The notes under the pieces were generated by a model, which was not told the DNA's origin, ran no database searches, and saw nothing but the letters and a program-made list of their open reading frames with translations. A stretch of DNA of 44,388 nt, taken from positions 1-44,388 of the IMG/VR virus record IMGVR_UViG_3300029448_007258; one strand, given 5' to 3'. The DNA comes from a virus. Shown here piece after piece: positions 181 through 16,747 of this stretch; within the stretch, counting starts at the first letter, position 1, and each line of letters starts with the position of its first letter. Position numbers and translations under genes: made by a program.

Positions 181-798
181 CTATATTAAATTATCAAATA
201 ATGTCTCTGCTAGTTTCTTACCAAACTCTTTGTCTGATGGGTAATGAGCTTTAGCAATTATTCTTGATTCAGCTACATCCTCTCCCAGCTGCATAAATTC
301 TTTTCTATATTCAGGATGCCTTTCAGAATAAATTTTACCTAATAAGTAACCTTGTGTTGCGTGGCCGCTTGGATAGGATGGTGTATTCATAGAATCCATA
401 TTGAAGTTACTAACGTCCATATGATAAAACTCAGCTATCTGATAAGGTCTTGGTCTGTTATATTTATACTTCAGTTCCATAAGGTACTTAGCAGATTGTT
501 TAAGTAACTCATCAGCTTCTTCTTTATTAAATTCTAAATCTAAATCTTCAAATAGATTTTTAAAAACTTTAGTAACATCATCATGCTCTTCCACAAACTT
601 TTTATCTACGCTTTGTTGTTCTAAATATTTTAATTCAGATAGTGTTTCTTTACTACCATTCTCAGGAAAAGGATTTTCTTCCATAGTAAAATCTTCAAAC
701 ATAGTTACGGGGTAGTCCATTCTCTTCTGGTGCTTTGGTTTAGGACCTTTATTATATGTCATCTCATTTATATGTAATAAATCTTTTAGTTTAAGCAT
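181..798 (-). CDS. PAP2-family acid phosphatase with capsid-targeting-like N-terminus
   Basis: A 205-residue protein. I place the start at the ATG at 798, not 816, because GAGGGTGG sits just upstream and because it gives MLKLKDLLHINE, the N-terminal peptide shared with its neighbours. The C-terminal half carries the complete PAP2/vanadium-haloperoxidase phosphatase signature: K-x6-R-P (about residues 110-118), PSGH (143-146) and S-R-x5-H-x3-D (178-189). All catalytic residues are present, so it should be an active phosphomonoesterase. It lacks membrane helices and a signal peptide, unusual for this family. The N-terminal peptide ends I-N-E, a plausible prohead-protease site, so the enzyme may be packaged in the head. 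It overlaps the preceding HAD gene by 8 bases. Confidence 0.85.
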   Translation of the reverse strand: MLKLKDLLHINEMTYNKGPKPKHQKRMDYPVTMFEDFTMEENPFPENGSKETLSELKYLEQQSVDKKFVEEHDDVTKVFKNLFEDLDLEFNKEEADELLKQSAKYLMELKYKYNRPRPYQIAEFYHMDVSNFNMDSMNTPSYPSGHATQGYLLGKIYSERHPEYRKEFMQLGEDVAESRIIAKAHYPSDKEFGKKLAETLFDNLI

Positions 799-1315
799 AC
801 TTAACCACCCTCGCATCCATTTTAATATTTGGATATTTTGATTTTAGTTTTTTCACAGCACTAACATTTTTTGGTGAGTCATCAAGAAACAATATATCAT
901 CATACCCATTTTCAATCTGACTCTGTACCCAATCAGATTTTTTCTGTGGATTTGAATCTCCCAATGCTACTACATATACATCACTATACCCAACATCTCT
1001 TAAAAAATTTTTGACTGGCTTATAAGCAGCTCTAGCAGTTAATACAGTTAATCTCCTACTACCACTTGCTTTATAAATATTTTTAAATACTCTGAACATA
1101 GCTTTTATTTTCTTTGGTTCTATCACCTTATCGAAATCAGAGAAGTCGAATTTATCACCAGACTTCTTCTTATATACTGCAAACTTACCAGGAGTTAATG
1201 TTGTTCTTACTCCATTATTATCGACATATACCTTAGAGTTAGACTTTACTAAAGTGTCATCAAAATCAAATACTCTTAGCTTTTTTTCTAAAAGTAAATC
1301 TCTTAACTTAATCAT
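791..1315 (-). CDS. HAD-family phosphatase with capsid-targeting-like N-terminus
   Basis: A 174-residue protein starting at the ATG at 1315. A GTG further upstream would extend it, but the ATG gives MIKLRDLLLEKK, matching neighbouring head-peptide genes. Directly after this leader come the HAD motifs: FDFDDT (motif I, nucleophile Asp), LTVLTAR (motif II Thr), a Lys in KKSDWV (motif III) and LFLDDSPKN (motif IV). The layout resembles the 3'-phosphatase domain of phage polynucleotide kinases, but the kinase half is absent. The substrate is unknown: nucleic-acid 3' phosphate or a small phosphoester are both possible. Cleavage at L-L-E would release a nearly intact HAD domain. Confidence 0.8.
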   Translation of the reverse strand: MIKLRDLLLEKKLRVFDFDDTLVKSNSKVYVDNNGVRTTLTPGKFAVYKKKSGDKFDFSDFDKVIEPKKIKAMFRVFKNIYKASGSRRLTVLTARAAYKPVKNFLRDVGYSDVYVVALGDSNPQKKSDWVQSQIENGYDDILFLDDSPKNVSAVKKLKSKYPNIKMDARVVKYA

Positions 1316-1451
1316 CACATAGTTCTTTTGTTGCATAATCACTCAGTACATCTGGCAACCAAGCATGAATGAATAGAGCTAAACTTATCCTCATAGCTCT
1401 CCACCAATGTTCAAAATATCCTACCTTATTTTCTTTTAGGTGTTTAATCAC
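1308..1451 (-). CDS. Small DUF6356-like protein
   Basis: A 47-residue frame begins with GTG at 1451, preceded by a strong AGAGGTGG ribosome site 8 bases away. It overlaps the HAD gene start by 8 bases. The pattern HLKENKVGYFEHWWRAMRIS, then LALFIHAWLPDVL, matches the DUF6356 style (H-x-x-E-x3-YF-x-H-x-x-x-A, then HA-x-x-P) seen in marine bacteria and phages. One amphipathic or membrane-associated helix (about residues 18-37) is predicted by eye. Function unknown. Confidence 0.7.
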   Translation of the reverse strand: MIKHLKENKVGYFEHWWRAMRISLALFIHAWLPDVLSDYATKELCDD

Positions 1452-1452
1452 G

Positions 1453-2145
1453 CTAAACACCACCTCTTATATTTTGCTGTGCTTTAGTGTATTTTCTATC
1501 TCCGATATCAGATGAATCTGCCATTATATCAACTCCAGGTGGTAAATTATATCCTTTTTGTATTCCGGCCTTTTTTAATCTATCTTCTACCATATCACTT
1601 AAATCACCATTACCTTCAGGATTTTTCTTTCTAAAATAATCTCTACCCAAAGCTATAGTTATCTTATCTTCATCATTTAGATGGATTGTAGCCTTAACCT
1701 TTATATCTTTTAAGGCTTTAACTATTTTGTCAAATGTCTTTTTATCTGATTTGTTTTCATTTATAGATTCATTTTTTAGTTTTGCTATTTTCTTTTTAGC
1801 ATCCTTAATATCTTGCTGTATCAATTTTATATACTTTTTTGCATTAGGATCTTTTCTTTTTTGTAGAATTTTTGCATTACTTAACATATTACTTAAATCT
1901 TCGATATGTTGAGCTAAATTATTTCTATCTCTTTGTGAACCTTCAACTACGGATTCTTTAATCTTTTTAGTCTTACCTTTAGTGATAAGCTTTTCACCAC
2001 CAACGAATTTTGCAGCTACTTTTTTCTCTGCGTCTTTTTTATCTTTAGCTTGGACATCTGTGGTATATCTTCCCAACTTCGCATCCTCTATATCAAAAGT
2101 TACTCTGAATGTTGCTTCTGTTAATAATTTTTTTAATTTTATCAT
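1453..2145 (-). CDS. Putative internal head protein with prohead-protease-like sites
   Basis: A 230-residue, lysine-rich protein of no recognised fold. Residues 1-10 (MIKLKKLLTE) are the shared targeting-like peptide, followed by Ala, a good prohead-protease product. Two further sites of the form E-S-(V/I)-x-E lie at 64-68 (ESVVE, then G) and 126-130 (ESINE, then N). They divide the protein into a small alpha/beta segment (11-68), a charged helical segment (69-130) and a C-terminal domain (131-230). The start directly follows the stop of the next gene upstream. By analogy with T4 IPI-IPIII and gp22 it would be packaged and processed; that is inference. Confidence 0.75.
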   Translation of the reverse strand: MIKLKKLLTEATFRVTFDIEDAKLGRYTTDVQAKDKKDAEKKVAAKFVGGEKLITKGKTKKIKESVVEGSQRDRNNLAQHIEDLSNMLSNAKILQKRKDPNAKKYIKLIQQDIKDAKKKIAKLKNESINENKSDKKTFDKIVKALKDIKVKATIHLNDEDKITIALGRDYFRKKNPEGNGDLSDMVEDRLKKAGIQKGYNLPPGVDIMADSSDIGDRKYTKAQQNIRGGV

Positions 2146-2147
2146 AA

Positions 2148-2633
2148 TTAATCTTCCAATGGATTAGCTGCTTTAGCCTTTGCTGAAAATTCTACGAAAT
2201 GTTTTTTATAAAGTTTCATAAGTTCTAAAGCCTTCTTTTTATCTCTTTTAGCAACATCGTTTTTAATAAGGTCTTTAATAATTTTATCACATCTTTGCAT
2301 AGCAACCATTACCTGTGTAGCGATAACTTGGTTTGTTGTAAGTTCATTTACAGATTCATTATATCTCTTATCCTTTAATAAATCCATCATAAGCTTTGAT
2401 TTTGAATGTATGTATTCTACTTCTTCTTTTGTAGTTAAATCGTTTTGATTCTTTATAGCTCTCATTAGGTTTTTAGCAGAGTCCATTAGATATTTAGCTT
2501 GTCCTTTTATTTCCATAAACCCTCTTCTTGTTATAGCTTCAACTACTGATTCTACTTTAAAGGGTGGTCTATCTTTATCTGTATAGACTTTACCTAATTC
2601 TAAATCTTTAATCATATCTTTTAATTTTACCAT
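2148..2633 (-). CDS. Putative internal head protein, helical, prohead-protease-like sites
   Basis: A 161-residue helical, lysine-rich protein. It opens with MVKLKDMIKDLE, a looser copy of the shared leader. ESVVE-A at 28-33 and ESVNE-L at 93-98 are the same pentapeptide class as in neighbouring genes and bracket a helical middle domain (33-97), leaving a helical C-terminal domain (98-161). The start ATG overlaps the end of the 400-residue gene. I recognise no family; role inferred from leader, sites and context. Confidence 0.72.
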   Translation of the reverse strand: MVKLKDMIKDLELGKVYTDKDRPPFKVESVVEAITRRGFMEIKGQAKYLMDSAKNLMRAIKNQNDLTTKEEVEYIHSKSKLMMDLLKDKRYNESVNELTTNQVIATQVMVAMQRCDKIIKDLIKNDVAKRDKKKALELMKLYKKHFVEFSAKAKAANPLED

Positions 2634-3829
2634 TTTCTACAGCTCCAGTAACGGGCTTTATGTCTTGGCCCTGGTGAATCACAATTATGTCTAGCTCTGA
2701 ATGATTTTCTGGCACCTGGATTAGACTTACGAATCTTCATAGTTCCACCCTTAGCCTTACCACCTTGTCCAAAGTTAACCTTAACAACATTACCCTTTGG
2801 GTTCTTAACATACACCTTAAACTTCTTTGCATCACCTTGCATAATCTTACCGAGCTTTACTTTTCTACCTTGGTATTCAGCCTCATTTAGTTTACCGTCA
2901 TTTATATGCTCAAATGTATATCCGTAACCTTTACCATCTGACTCATAGAATATTTCTGTAATTTCTTTTACACAATTAGGCACCATCTTACCACCTTTGT
3001 CTTTCATACCCTTTTGTTGGTAACCTACCCAGCAAGTTCCTCTAGCTTCATTTCTTTTTTTCTTCATACTTTTTTTGAGGTCTTTTGGTAATGCTTTCAA
3101 ATCATCTAAACCTTCATTAGCCATTTTAAGAGCATTCTTTACTTTCTTATCTTTGGATAATCCCTTTTTAATCTTTTCAATTGCCTTAACAGCACCTGTC
3201 ATATTACCACCCATCACAAGAGCTATACTTACTGCCTGTCTTTGGTGGTTGCTTAATTTTTTAAAAAATGGACTAAGACCTATATCTCTTATAGAGTATC
3301 CCTCTCCCATAGATTGGAGTCCTATAAGTGCCATAGTCTTACCTCTTGGGGATGAATTACTATATGCTTTATTTACATATTTTAAATTCTTTTTAATCAT
3401 AGCTGCAGCATCCTTTGCACTACTTCCATACTTGATAAGAAGATTGTATATCTTCTTCATTTCAGGATTTACCCTTTCATCTACAGACTCCATACCAAGA
3501 TGACTTATCTTACCCATACCTGATTTACTTCTAAGTCTAATTGGTTTTTTCTTCTTTAATTTTTTGAGAGCATCCATATTCTTCTTTCTCTTCTTATTAT
3601 ATTTATTTAAGGTTTTACCAAACTTATCACCTAACCCTTCTTTCTTAGATTTATTACCCCAATTTTTTGCACCAGCTTTACGACATTTTACGAGAGCACC
3701 ACTAGCATAAGCGGATGGCCAGACATCGTATCTCGCTTTAACCTTATGGTAACAAGCATCCTTCTTACCAGCGGCTTCATCAAACTGAGCTTCTGTAATT
3801 GACTTACCAACTAATTCTTCTAACTTCAT
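2627..3829 (-). CDS. Multidomain basic head-peptide protein (possible polyprotein)
   Basis: A 400-residue, very basic protein. MKLEELVGKSITE (1-13) is the leader, with Ala after it. Three recognisable pieces follow: a Cys-containing segment (CYHKVKARYDVWPSAYASG, then LVKCRK-x-GA-x-NWG, 26-59) common in marine T4-like phages, then a run of Lys/Arg (60-110); a helical centre (120-290); and a C-terminal basic domain (about 317-400) ending HNCDSPGPRHKARYWSCRKW, also known from marine phages as an unnamed conserved domain. Candidate cleavage sites ITE-A (13), SVDE-R (118), ITE-I (292) and LNE-A (316) fall between these pieces. The polybasic character suits DNA contact inside the capsid. Confidence 0.75.
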   Translation of the reverse strand: MKLEELVGKSITEAQFDEAAGKKDACYHKVKARYDVWPSAYASGALVKCRKAGAKNWGNKSKKEGLGDKFGKTLNKYNKKRKKNMDALKKLKKKKPIRLRSKSGMGKISHLGMESVDERVNPEMKKIYNLLIKYGSSAKDAAAMIKKNLKYVNKAYSNSSPRGKTMALIGLQSMGEGYSIRDIGLSPFFKKLSNHQRQAVSIALVMGGNMTGAVKAIEKIKKGLSKDKKVKNALKMANEGLDDLKALPKDLKKSMKKKRNEARGTCWVGYQQKGMKDKGGKMVPNCVKEITEIFYESDGKGYGYTFEHINDGKLNEAEYQGRKVKLGKIMQGDAKKFKVYVKNPKGNVVKVNFGQGGKAKGGTMKIRKSNPGARKSFRARHNCDSPGPRHKARYWSCRKW

Positions 3830-3838
3830 TACACTCTC

Positions 3839-4396
3839 CTACTTCTTTGGTTTGGTACTTACTCTGATTGGCTTCTTACCACCACCACTTATAGATGATG
3901 TACCGCCCCTACCAGCTTTATTTTGAGCCGCCCTCTTCCTACGTGTCGCTGACGCTTTTTGTTTTTTGGACATCCCAGCAGCCTTAGATGCTGGAACACA
4001 CTTAGCATACCCTCTTTTTTTTCCACTTGAACCACACGGTGGATGACCACCGCCCTTTTTCTTTTTACCGATATTAACCCACCTATCACTAAACCATTTC
4101 TTTAAGTTCTCATTTGCAAAGTCACCACAATTTTCACATATGTTGTCAGCTATCATACCAGCTTGTTCTAAAGTAACTGTAGTATCAATTCCTTCTTTCT
4201 TTACACAATTCCTATATCTCTTACCAAACATAACTTTTGTTTTACGAGTAGGATGTGTCATATATCCTTTTTGGCAAGCTTCATCTAAATCAAATTTTTT
4301 CTTCTTCAAAAGATGAGGGCCAGCTGGCTCATCGCCTAGCTGACCATCAACACCATAGCCACAAGTACCTTCTAATATTTCTTGTAACTTAATCAC
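3839..4396 (-). CDS. Basic Cys-containing phage protein with capsid-targeting-like leader
   Basis: A 185-residue protein starting with GTG at 4396, one base after the upstream stop codon. MIKLQEILEG (1-10) matches the shared leader with an L-E/G cut. The body has CQKGY...YRNCVKKEG (41-69), a CENCG pair (87-91) and a long basic C-terminus: RWVNIGKKKKGGGHPPCGSS (105-124), then KRGYAKCVPASKAAGMSKKQ. This RWVNI...GGG-x2-PCG...YPKC-type module recurs in cyanophages and other marine myoviruses as a hypothetical protein. The cysteines could bind zinc. It is probably a nucleic-acid-binding head protein; exact function unknown. Confidence 0.75.
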   Translation of the reverse strand: MIKLQEILEGTCGYGVDGQLGDEPAGPHLLKKKKFDLDEACQKGYMTHPTRKTKVMFGKRYRNCVKKEGIDTTVTLEQAGMIADNICENCGDFANENLKKWFSDRWVNIGKKKKGGGHPPCGSSGKKRGYAKCVPASKAAGMSKKQKASATRRKRAAQNKAGRGGTSSISGGGKKPIRVSTKPKK

Positions 4397-4513: not shown

Positions 4514-4708
4514 TTATTTGCTCCCAAAGATTTTAGAGAAGAAACCTTTCTTACTCTTTTTGCCTTTTTTAGCACCGACTTTCTTACCTTTCTTTTTCTT
4601 CTTCTTGACTTCTTCCATCCCAGCCATGTTCATGTCCATAGCATTTACAGTTGGTACAGTACCAAAGAATATAAAAAGAGAAAGTATACCTGTTAGTATT
4701 GATTTCAT
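4514..4708 (-). CDS. Tiny exported lysine-rich peptide
   Basis: The ATG at 4708 has a near-perfect GGAGGA site 7 bases upstream and gives 64 residues. MKSILTGILSLFIFFGTVPT then VNA-M looks like a Sec signal peptide (cut near residue 23). The mature part is about 40 residues: a short Met/Asp segment, then a polylysine tract (VKKKKKKGKKVGAKKGKKSK) and an aromatic tail GFFSKIFGSK. It is first in the head-peptide run. A cationic periplasmic or membrane-active peptide is plausible; alternatively it binds DNA or LPS. No family recognised. Confidence 0.65.
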   Translation of the reverse strand: MKSILTGILSLFIFFGTVPTVNAMDMNMAGMEEVKKKKKKGKKVGAKKGKKSKKGFFSKIFGSK

Positions 4709-4775
4709 AATACTATCCTCCAATTAACGCGTTATTGTTATGTAAATAAATATAAAAAATTAAAGTTTTATGTAT
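4709..4775 (-). promoter_or_regulatory. Likely promoter/leader region of the head-peptide operon
   Basis: A 67-base AT-rich gap separates the membrane-protein pair from the head-peptide genes and ends in the GGAGGA ribosome site at 4716-4721. On the minus strand it contains TATATTTATTTACATAAC. I do not see a T4-type TATAAATA late element nor a clear -35. It is the only space where a promoter for the downstream genes could sit, but none can be defined. Confidence 0.3.
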
Positions 4776-15886: not shown

Positions 15887-15990
15887 TACTCACTCTCTTT
15901 CTTTACACTCAACATTTTAACAATCATATCTAATTTCTTTTCTATTGACGCTAGAAGGTTAATAAGCTGATTTGATGTTTTTTCATCCAT
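15886..15990 (-). CDS. Very small helical protein
   Basis: 34 residues: MDEKTSNQLINLLASIEKKL then DMIVKMLSVKKESE. CAGGAG sits 7 bases upstream and it overlaps the Mom-like gene's end by 8 bases. One amphipathic helix; probable oligomerisation peptide. Function unknown. Confidence 0.65.
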   Translation of the reverse strand: MDEKTSNQLINLLASIEKKLDMIVKMLSVKKESE

Positions 15991-16747
15991 GATTTACTCC
16001 TGTTTTGTTATTATAAACTTTTACCTTTATTACTTCTGGTTCCATTATATCCGCTGTTTTAGGATAAGGAAATATAGGATGTTTTAGATTCTGTGTAGCC
16101 GTTCTCTTCTCTCTCTTAGTACCGAGCAGATACACATACCTATGTTTTCTCAACTCCTTCTTTACCCAAAAATCTTTCTCTACCAAGCTCTTCATCTTTT
16201 CTATGTTGTTTGTTCCATAATATGGAAATATAGTTCTACCATGTTGCCATTTACCATCCTCTTCCCATTTAAATAACCAACTGTCATTTGGTCTTATCCT
16301 ATTACCCTGATATAACCAATTGGTTGCTTGGTATATAGTACCTACATGACCTTGTTGGGGATCTGAGTATGATATGAGAGCCTTTATATCTTTTCTATTC
16401 TTCTTTAACCAATTAAAGCCTTCTCCTATCAGATACGATTCAACGTTACTTCCATAACCATCATGCACAAATAGTCTTACTAATTCGTATACATTTTCTC
16501 TTGGTATAGCAGCTGATATCGAAGCGCCTGAATGTCTACCTATCGGATCACCATAACATATTGTACCGATTAGTTTCTCTTCTGGCTCATCAAAAAATTG
16601 GTGTTCATTACCTGTGGTGTAATATAACCCTAAAGCTATACTACATTTAGTCCATTGTTTAGAGTAGTGGTATTTAACCACCATACTTTTAGCAACCTTT
16701 CTATCTATTTCCCTAACCGATAATTTTGAGGTATCTACATATTTCAT
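15983..16747 (-). CDS. mom: Mom-like DNA-modification GNAT protein
   Basis: 254 residues, close to Mu Mom. Features: KYHYSK (25-30), ELVRLF (88-93) and SYSDPQQGHVGTIYQATNW (126-144), the strongly conserved Mom core, then KHRYVYLLG (201-209). Mom is a GNAT-fold protein that hypermodifies adenine and shields phage DNA from restriction enzymes. The zinc-finger translational activator Com of Mu is not found nearby. Whether the same chemistry occurs cannot be read from sequence. Confidence 0.85.
   Translation of the reverse strand: MKYVDTSKLSVREIDRKVAKSMVVKYHYSKQWTKCSIALGLYYTTGNEHQFFDEPEEKLIGTICYGDPIGRHSGASISAAIPRENVYELVRLFVHDGYGSNVESYLIGEGFNWLKKNRKDIKALISYSDPQQGHVGTIYQATNWLYQGNRIRPNDSWLFKWEEDGKWQHGRTIFPYYGTNNIEKMKSLVEKDFWVKKELRKHRYVYLLGTKREKRTATQNLKHPIFPYPKTADIMEPEVIKVKVYNNKTGVNHG

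Follow-up and report, generated by a model that had tools for sequence, protein, structure and literature searches.

Candidate capsid cargo with polyprotein-like precursors encoded by a leader-bearing gene cluster of an uncultured T4-like phage

The stretch of viral DNA considered here (the window, 44,388 nucleotides) belongs to an uncultured virus record of 55,907 bases, IMGVR_UViG_3300029448_007258, and contains at positions 181-4396 six leader genes, p1 to p6, all on the minus strand and with starts of the MxKLxxLL type. Comparison with loci from relatives (designated by L and a number, L001 being the remainder of the same record) suggests, with a probability of about 0.8, that this cluster, from a T4-like phage, is a cassette of capsid cargo genes whose products would be targeted to the head by the leader and, in p3-p5, be processed by a gp21-type protease. 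The reading as head-targeted cargo is well supported by sequence, and some of the precursors look like polyproteins within a T4-type capsid-targeted cargo system. The cluster is made up of the following features:

181..798, minus strand: p1, PAP2 / class A acid phosphatase, 205 aa (Pfam PF01569, 7e-8; PhoN-type acid phosphatases in PDB, 4e-10)
763..798, minus strand: p1 leader MLKLKDLLHINE, compared with the N-termini of homologs in L003, L016, L186 and L017
791..1315, minus strand: p2, HAD phosphatase, 174 aa, polynucleotide-kinase-phosphatase-like (phrog_415, 1e-6)
1286..1315, minus strand: p2 leader MIKLRDLLLE
1308..1463, minus strand: small leaderless open reading frame (ORF) between p2 and p3, weakly DUF6356-like (Pfam E=0.0074, under the cut-off)
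1453..2145, minus strand: p3, three-part protein in the order leader, domain, ESVVE, helical domain, ESINE, C-terminal domain
2116..2145, minus strand: p3 leader MIKLKKLLTE
1942..1956, minus strand: p3 internal ESVVE, residues 64-68, in a low-confidence model stretch (48-69)
1756..1770, minus strand: p3 internal ESINE, residues 126-130, aligning with the leader end of stand-alone homologs; low-confidence stretch 127-132
2148..2633, minus strand: p4, 161 aa, with two internal sites and the N-terminal leader MVKLKDMIKDLE
2538..2633, minus strand: p4 putative long propeptide MVKLKDMIKDLELGKVYTDKDRPPFKVESVVE, with a GKVY segment
2538..2552, minus strand: p4 ESVVE, residues 28-32, likely propeptide cut
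2343..2357, minus strand: p4 internal ESVNE, residues 93-97
2627..3829, minus strand: p5, modular and very basic protein, 400 aa, net charge +61, modules C, A and B (phrog_727/38880/9737/7595)
3791..3829, minus strand: p5 leader MKLEELVGKSITE, identical in L014 and L016
3476..3490, minus strand: p5 internal ESVDE, residues 114-118; ESVDE at the same junction in L083
2882..2890, minus strand: p5 LNE, residues 314-316, immediately N-terminal to module B
2630..2881, minus strand: p5 module B (AEYQGRKVKLG...YWSCRKW), near-invariant among relatives and leader-borne in L114
3839..4396, minus strand: p6, basic and modular protein rich in Cys, 185 aa, net charge +25, GTG start, weakly DUF5872-like (phrog_23735)
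4370..4396, minus strand: p6 leader (M/V)IKLQEILE; its cargo GTCGYG... sits internally after LAKMNE in L126

The six leaders are encoded at 181-4396 as the initial annotation had stated, all on the minus strand, and the five pentapeptides it listed (ESVVE twice, ESVDE, ESINE and ESVNE) do occur in three proteins, p3, p4 and p5. Its description of six adjacent genes is not strictly accurate, the leaderless ORF at 1308-1463 intervening between p2 and p3. As to the (I/L/V)-x-E ending ascribed to the leaders, the p4 leader ends in D-L-E, outside this pattern, and the Glu of p1 is not kept in most homologs. The p4 leader, moreover, is not as short as had been noted: the N-terminus runs on as LELGKVYTDKDRPPFKVESVVE, and the longer propeptide likely extends to the cut point ESVVE at residues 28-32. 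In the capsid-targeting rule of T4, residues 4 and 7 serve targeting and residues 8 and 10 processing (PMC9026906). Measured against this rule (hydrophobic residues at 4 and 7/8, Glu at 10), p2 and p3 fit exactly, while the Glu is at position 9 in p6 and 13 in p5; poorer fits are p1, with a non-conserved Glu at 12, and p4 with its longer propeptide.

The candidate cut sites are far more frequent in the cluster than composition predicts. The pattern ES[VI]xE occurs five times in p1-p6, against a shuffle mean of 0.021 (0 of 5000 shuffles reach 5), and is absent from the record's 78 remaining ORFs (15,759 aa); in the proteins of the fetched loci of relatives it was observed 145 times versus 28.4 in shuffled sequences, with reversed and substituted control patterns at about 0.9-2.3 times their own shuffled counts. 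These figures bear on the possibility that the motifs are coincidental in the Glu/Lys-rich proteins of an ordinary phage operon. The Lys/Glu-rich composition would favor such an explanation, as would the matches of a loose leader regular expression to 5 of the 78 other ORFs of the record (none of the MxKL type), but both these enrichments and the boundary permutations described below speak against chance, which is already disfavoured and appears highly improbable.

The leader itself is spread over a wide range of unrelated proteins. In loci fetched mainly by similarity to p5, the leader motif is found at 92 of 1527 ORF starts versus 38 of 12,560 internal start codons. Viral contigs were scanned with a DNA pattern for MIKLK[DENK][IL][IL]xE, whose codons also allow Met or Phe; in the fetched loci this gave at least 176 matches, of which 167 among those listed are ORF starts. 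The leader proteins fetched from uncultured T4-like phages, at least 246 in number, fall by BLAST into 140 families, of which 122 representatives align over the leader alone, at a mean column identity of 5%. They are also more basic than other proteins, with a median net charge per residue of +0.040 versus -0.005. The isolate HTVC008M has few leaders of the MxKL type and was dropped as an isolate for testing.

Further evidence comes from domains that one protein carries behind a leader and another carries internally; a boundary was scored when the site lay no more than 2 residues from the position aligned with the leader Glu. The motif [LIVMF]xE is present at 55 of 97 such cargo boundaries versus 10.0 expected, at 13.8 of 21 versus 1.9 when averaged by family (0 of 2000 permutations), and at 27 of 48 versus 5.0 where the alignment starts after the leader. 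The clearest case is p3, where KLKNESINE followed by NKSDKKTFDK in the window corresponds to MIKLKDLVIE followed by NKSDKKTFDK in L083; in L003, L082 and L083 the C-terminal domain of p3 is encoded by a leader gene of its own. In the HAD family, fetched by domain-only patterns without use of the leader, all 51 distinct upstream decapeptides contain [LIVMF]xE (3.4 expected), behind at least three kinds of N-terminus. In a larger set the motif is found in 52 of 54 distinct upstream peptides for HAD, 52 of 54 for module B, 14 of 14 for a P-loop kinase, 45 of 48 for module C, 27 of 31 for module A and 18 of 22 for a ligase-like domain, at mean upstream identities of 0.15-0.38; module B is the weakest of these cases because its site may count as part of the module. 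In the window the leader MIKLRDLLLE of p2 is joined directly onto the HAD catalytic domain; a HAD homolog at L185 1946-2515 begins at the catalytic domain and has no leader at all.

These boundary data also bear on the proposal that the leader is some other N-terminal element, such as an uncut membrane- or core-docking segment, a translation start context or a degradation tag, with LxE as a by-product of composition. The leaders are indeed short and amphipathic, and the homologs of p1, which has all three PAP2 motifs (KX6RP, PSGH, SRX5HX3D), keep the amphipathic part while in most of them the Glu is absent (LALNK, LSLRN, VNMNN), leaving the PAP2 leader without a conserved cut site. Yet such an element would not account for [LIVMF]xE ahead of HAD behind unrelated N-termini in 51 of 51 cases or ahead of internal modules with dissimilar upstream peptides, nor for the linkage to gp20-gp23 described below or a leader-like start on an enzyme found in virions, and we consider it quite improbable. 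The enzyme in question, a distant one, is the cytidylyltransferase (T4-GC190) of cyanophage S-SM1, which starts with the T4-like leader MKKFSAFLNE followed by Ala and was found in purified S-SM1 virions (PMC3037559). In T4, an Asp at position 10 of the leader blocks trimming and not targeting (PMC9026906); together with the loss of Glu in its homologs, this makes p1 a candidate for head targeting without trimming.

Genomic context connects the leader genes with head genes. L094 has four leader genes between gp21 and gp22, together with a protein containing ESVDE and ESVNE, all on the same strand as gp20 and gp23, and leader genes are found inside gp20-gp23 head operons in many further loci. 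The gp20-gp23 genes are present in 45 of 124 leader-bearing loci versus 5 of 76 leaderless ones, which is a comparison and not a controlled test since the two sets of loci were fetched differently. Close homologs of p5 and p6 occur in L014 about 4-6 kb downstream of gp23. Relatives with leader genes encode a Peptidase_S77 protein, the gp21 homolog, and in most relatives NES-type sites lie close to one or both termini of gp21 itself. In nearly all gp23 sequences of relatives covering the region, Q[LI][ILV]xE followed by A/S/T is present just before the conserved capsid domain, at a position which we take to be that of the T4 gp23 maturation site. This is compatible with an [LI]xE specificity of the protease, and the Val found at P3 of this capsid site lends support to V in ESVxE. 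The remainder of the 55,907-base record encodes a family-B DNA polymerase, a sliding clamp and a clamp loader that look T4-like by reading, and the DNA polymerase (gp43) of the window phage is closest, among isolates, to that of Microcystis phage Mel-JY01 (46.6% identity), a phage with genes that start MIKLKSLLQE and MIKLMSLVTE and with an annotated prohead protease. The suggestion of a packaged-protein module made in the initial annotation thus gains support from the leader on 140 unrelated families, the head-operon linkage and the gp21 homolog of relatives, and that of processing at more than one point from internal sites where leader-borne cargo starts elsewhere.

How many products each precursor would yield is less certain. 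The modules of p5 (C, YHKVKARYDVWPSAYASGALVKC; A, TCWVGYQQKGMK; B, AEYQGRKVKLG...YWSCRKW) are each found elsewhere as leader genes of their own, C in L036, A in L162 and B in L114. There appears to be a slightly better than even chance that uncultured T4-like phages make head-packaged polyproteins, in which one precursor gives rise to several injected effectors and the order of modules is reshuffled between phages, since any domain would become cargo once preceded by a leader or by an [LIV]xE linker. Alternatively, the proteins might be head-targeted with internal sites that only clear long propeptides, as in phiKZ-like phages, so that the C-terminal module alone is kept and no multi-product polyproteins arise. 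The multiple cuts in propeptides of SPN3US (PMC10052503), the built-in redundancy described for phiKZ (PMC9026906) and the resemblance of the p4 ESVVE to a propeptide end are all consistent with this alternative; but the upstream modules of p5, being complete genes with their own leader elsewhere, look like cargo and not only like propeptide, and a single retained module seems unlikely overall. The GKVY segment of p4 is common to HAD and other proteins of freshwater phages, and elsewhere precedes HAD, a module-B protein, a DHEVSMAQ protein and others, frequently with an [ILM]xE end. In L309-L355 a longer GKVY-type propeptide is found on at least three unrelated protein kinds.

Several observations weigh against the interpretation as a processed cargo cassette. 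Glu at position 10 was built into the scan pattern, so that the figure for this residue is partly preset. ES[VI]xE is found in portal and neck proteins as well, within conserved stretches that are probably uncut, so the motif alone is unspecific, and ES[VIL]xE is not enriched in the gp22 of relatives (5 versus 4.0 expected); on both grounds ES[VI]xE was rejected as a universal mark of head-protease substrates. The p1 leader has no conserved Glu motif, and the K-R-N-E before module A of p5 does not fit, relatives having ESVDE or ESVNE there. In the excerpts of the SPN3US study nearly all cuts remove N-terminal propeptides (PMC10052503), by which measure retained multi-module products would be unusual. 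The AlphaFold model of p3 is weak (mean predicted local distance difference test score, pLDDT, 58), and of it only the low-confidence breaks at 48-69 and 127-132 were used, while that of p5 was discarded as too poor to use (mean pLDDT 52). Lastly, a search of the 55.9-kb fragment for Peptidase_S77 gave no match, a blank that is uninformative because the search controls were also silent.

Among known systems the closest parallel is formed by the internal proteins IPI-III and Alt of T4, which share with the present proteins an N-terminal leader of about ten residues fitting the 4/7/8/10 rule, the use of one kind of leader on dissimilar and mostly basic cargo, the gp21-gp22-gp23 head genes (here those of relatives) and, as a probable feature, the L/I-x-E cut rule. 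The differences lie in the leader sequence MIKLKDLLxE, the at least 140 cargo families fetched with their many enzymes, the apparent acceptance of Val at P3 of the capsid site, the second and longer GKVY propeptide, and the tandem fusion of cargo with cut-like linkers. The inner-body and ejection proteins of phiKZ/SPN3US resemble the system proposed here in their gp21-related protease, short Glu-ended motif and several cuts per protein; there, however, the cuts remove N-terminal propeptides (apart from self-cleavage of the protease), and the excerpts describe no swapping of modules between leader-borne and internal positions. In the case of P1, an N-terminal signal sends DarB, and even a foreign protein, into the head (PMC9024508), but in the portion of the literature consulted this signal is shown for DarB alone, and P1 is apparently without a separate scaffold. 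Set against these accounts, the present system differs from T4, phiKZ/SPN3US and P1 in how broad its cargo is and in having modules that stand in tandem, separated by cut-like linkers, and can be swapped; in the open-licence literature no description was found of the MxKL leader or of prohead-protease polyproteins.

The polyvalent proteins (Iyer et al. 2017, PMC5512222) are likewise multidomain, are predicted to be delivered with the phage DNA and share the ART-PolyVal domain type. Several domains per polypeptide are seen in the modular p3 and p5 and in a multidomain 1528-aa protein (L009 10371-14957), which combines a polyA-polymerase head with HD, cytidylyltransferase-like and KxDG-motif domains and has an ESVNE linker. 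Release of polyvalent proteins, where proposed, is by internal peptidase domains, whereas the linkers here resemble head-protease sites; the embedded releasing peptidase of some polyvalent proteins was found neither in p1-p6, where a Pfam scan at curated cut-offs gave no peptidase domain, nor above the curated cut-off in the L009 protein.

A Pfam scan of the 122 leader proteins matched 37 families, most of those listed having a single member. The matches include ART-PolyVal, DUF5872, Nudix, RNase_T, M23 with phage lysozyme, PAP2 and HD, and also GNAT, zeta toxin, PRTase, RimK, Mom and NT5C; PADLOC matches among these proteins were single and mixed. A common cargo function such as RNA repair was weighed and is not claimed. 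Sequence searches against solved structures gave no convincing match for p2 or for the ligase-like protein of L114, whose name is based on a KxDG motif spotted by eye.

Elsewhere in the window, a short protein with a signal-peptide-like start and Lys-rich tail adjoins the leader cluster (4514-4723) and has no significant family match. A Mom-like DNA-modification gene is present at 15983-16747 (phrog_1384, 3e-50); by eye, two further ORFs at L001 4181-4822 and 6408-7175 have a similar start motif, and one leader protein from another phage also matches Mom. Positions 18242-44198 are occupied by a long cluster of sugar-nucleotide epimerases, glycosyltransferases, methyltransferases, a Nol-like carbamoyltransferase and a transaldolase. 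At the record end an ORF (L001 10560-11849) resembles, by reading, the end of a TonB-dependent receptor and may be an assembly join.

Taken together, these observations allow a mechanism to be proposed, in which targeting, cleavage, packaging, injection and cargo function are inferred. The N-terminal capsid-targeting propeptide (M-x-K-L-x-x-L-L-x-E, or the longer GKVY form in p4) would dock the protein to the scaffold core during prohead assembly, and a gp21-type prohead protease, with [LIVM]-x-E as its probable site in this phage group, would then remove it. In p3, p4 and p5 the same protease might also cut the ES[VI]xE or similar linkers, giving several small basic modules per precursor, while p1 may be targeted and perhaps left untrimmed. 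Inside the head the products would remain with the DNA, and they would pass into the next host together with the genome, injection being suggested by analogy with T4.

If this is true, a ten-residue tag and a cut site would allow likely packaged, and perhaps injected, proteins to be read from sequence alone; in the uncultured phages of the T4-like kind most of these proteins are without an annotated function. With enzymes among the cargo matches (PolyVal-type ADP-ribosyltransferase, zeta-type kinase, Nudix, HD, exonuclease and phosphatases), what these phages deliver in early infection would become a testable question, and tandem processing by the head protease would represent an unusual route to several virion proteins per gene.

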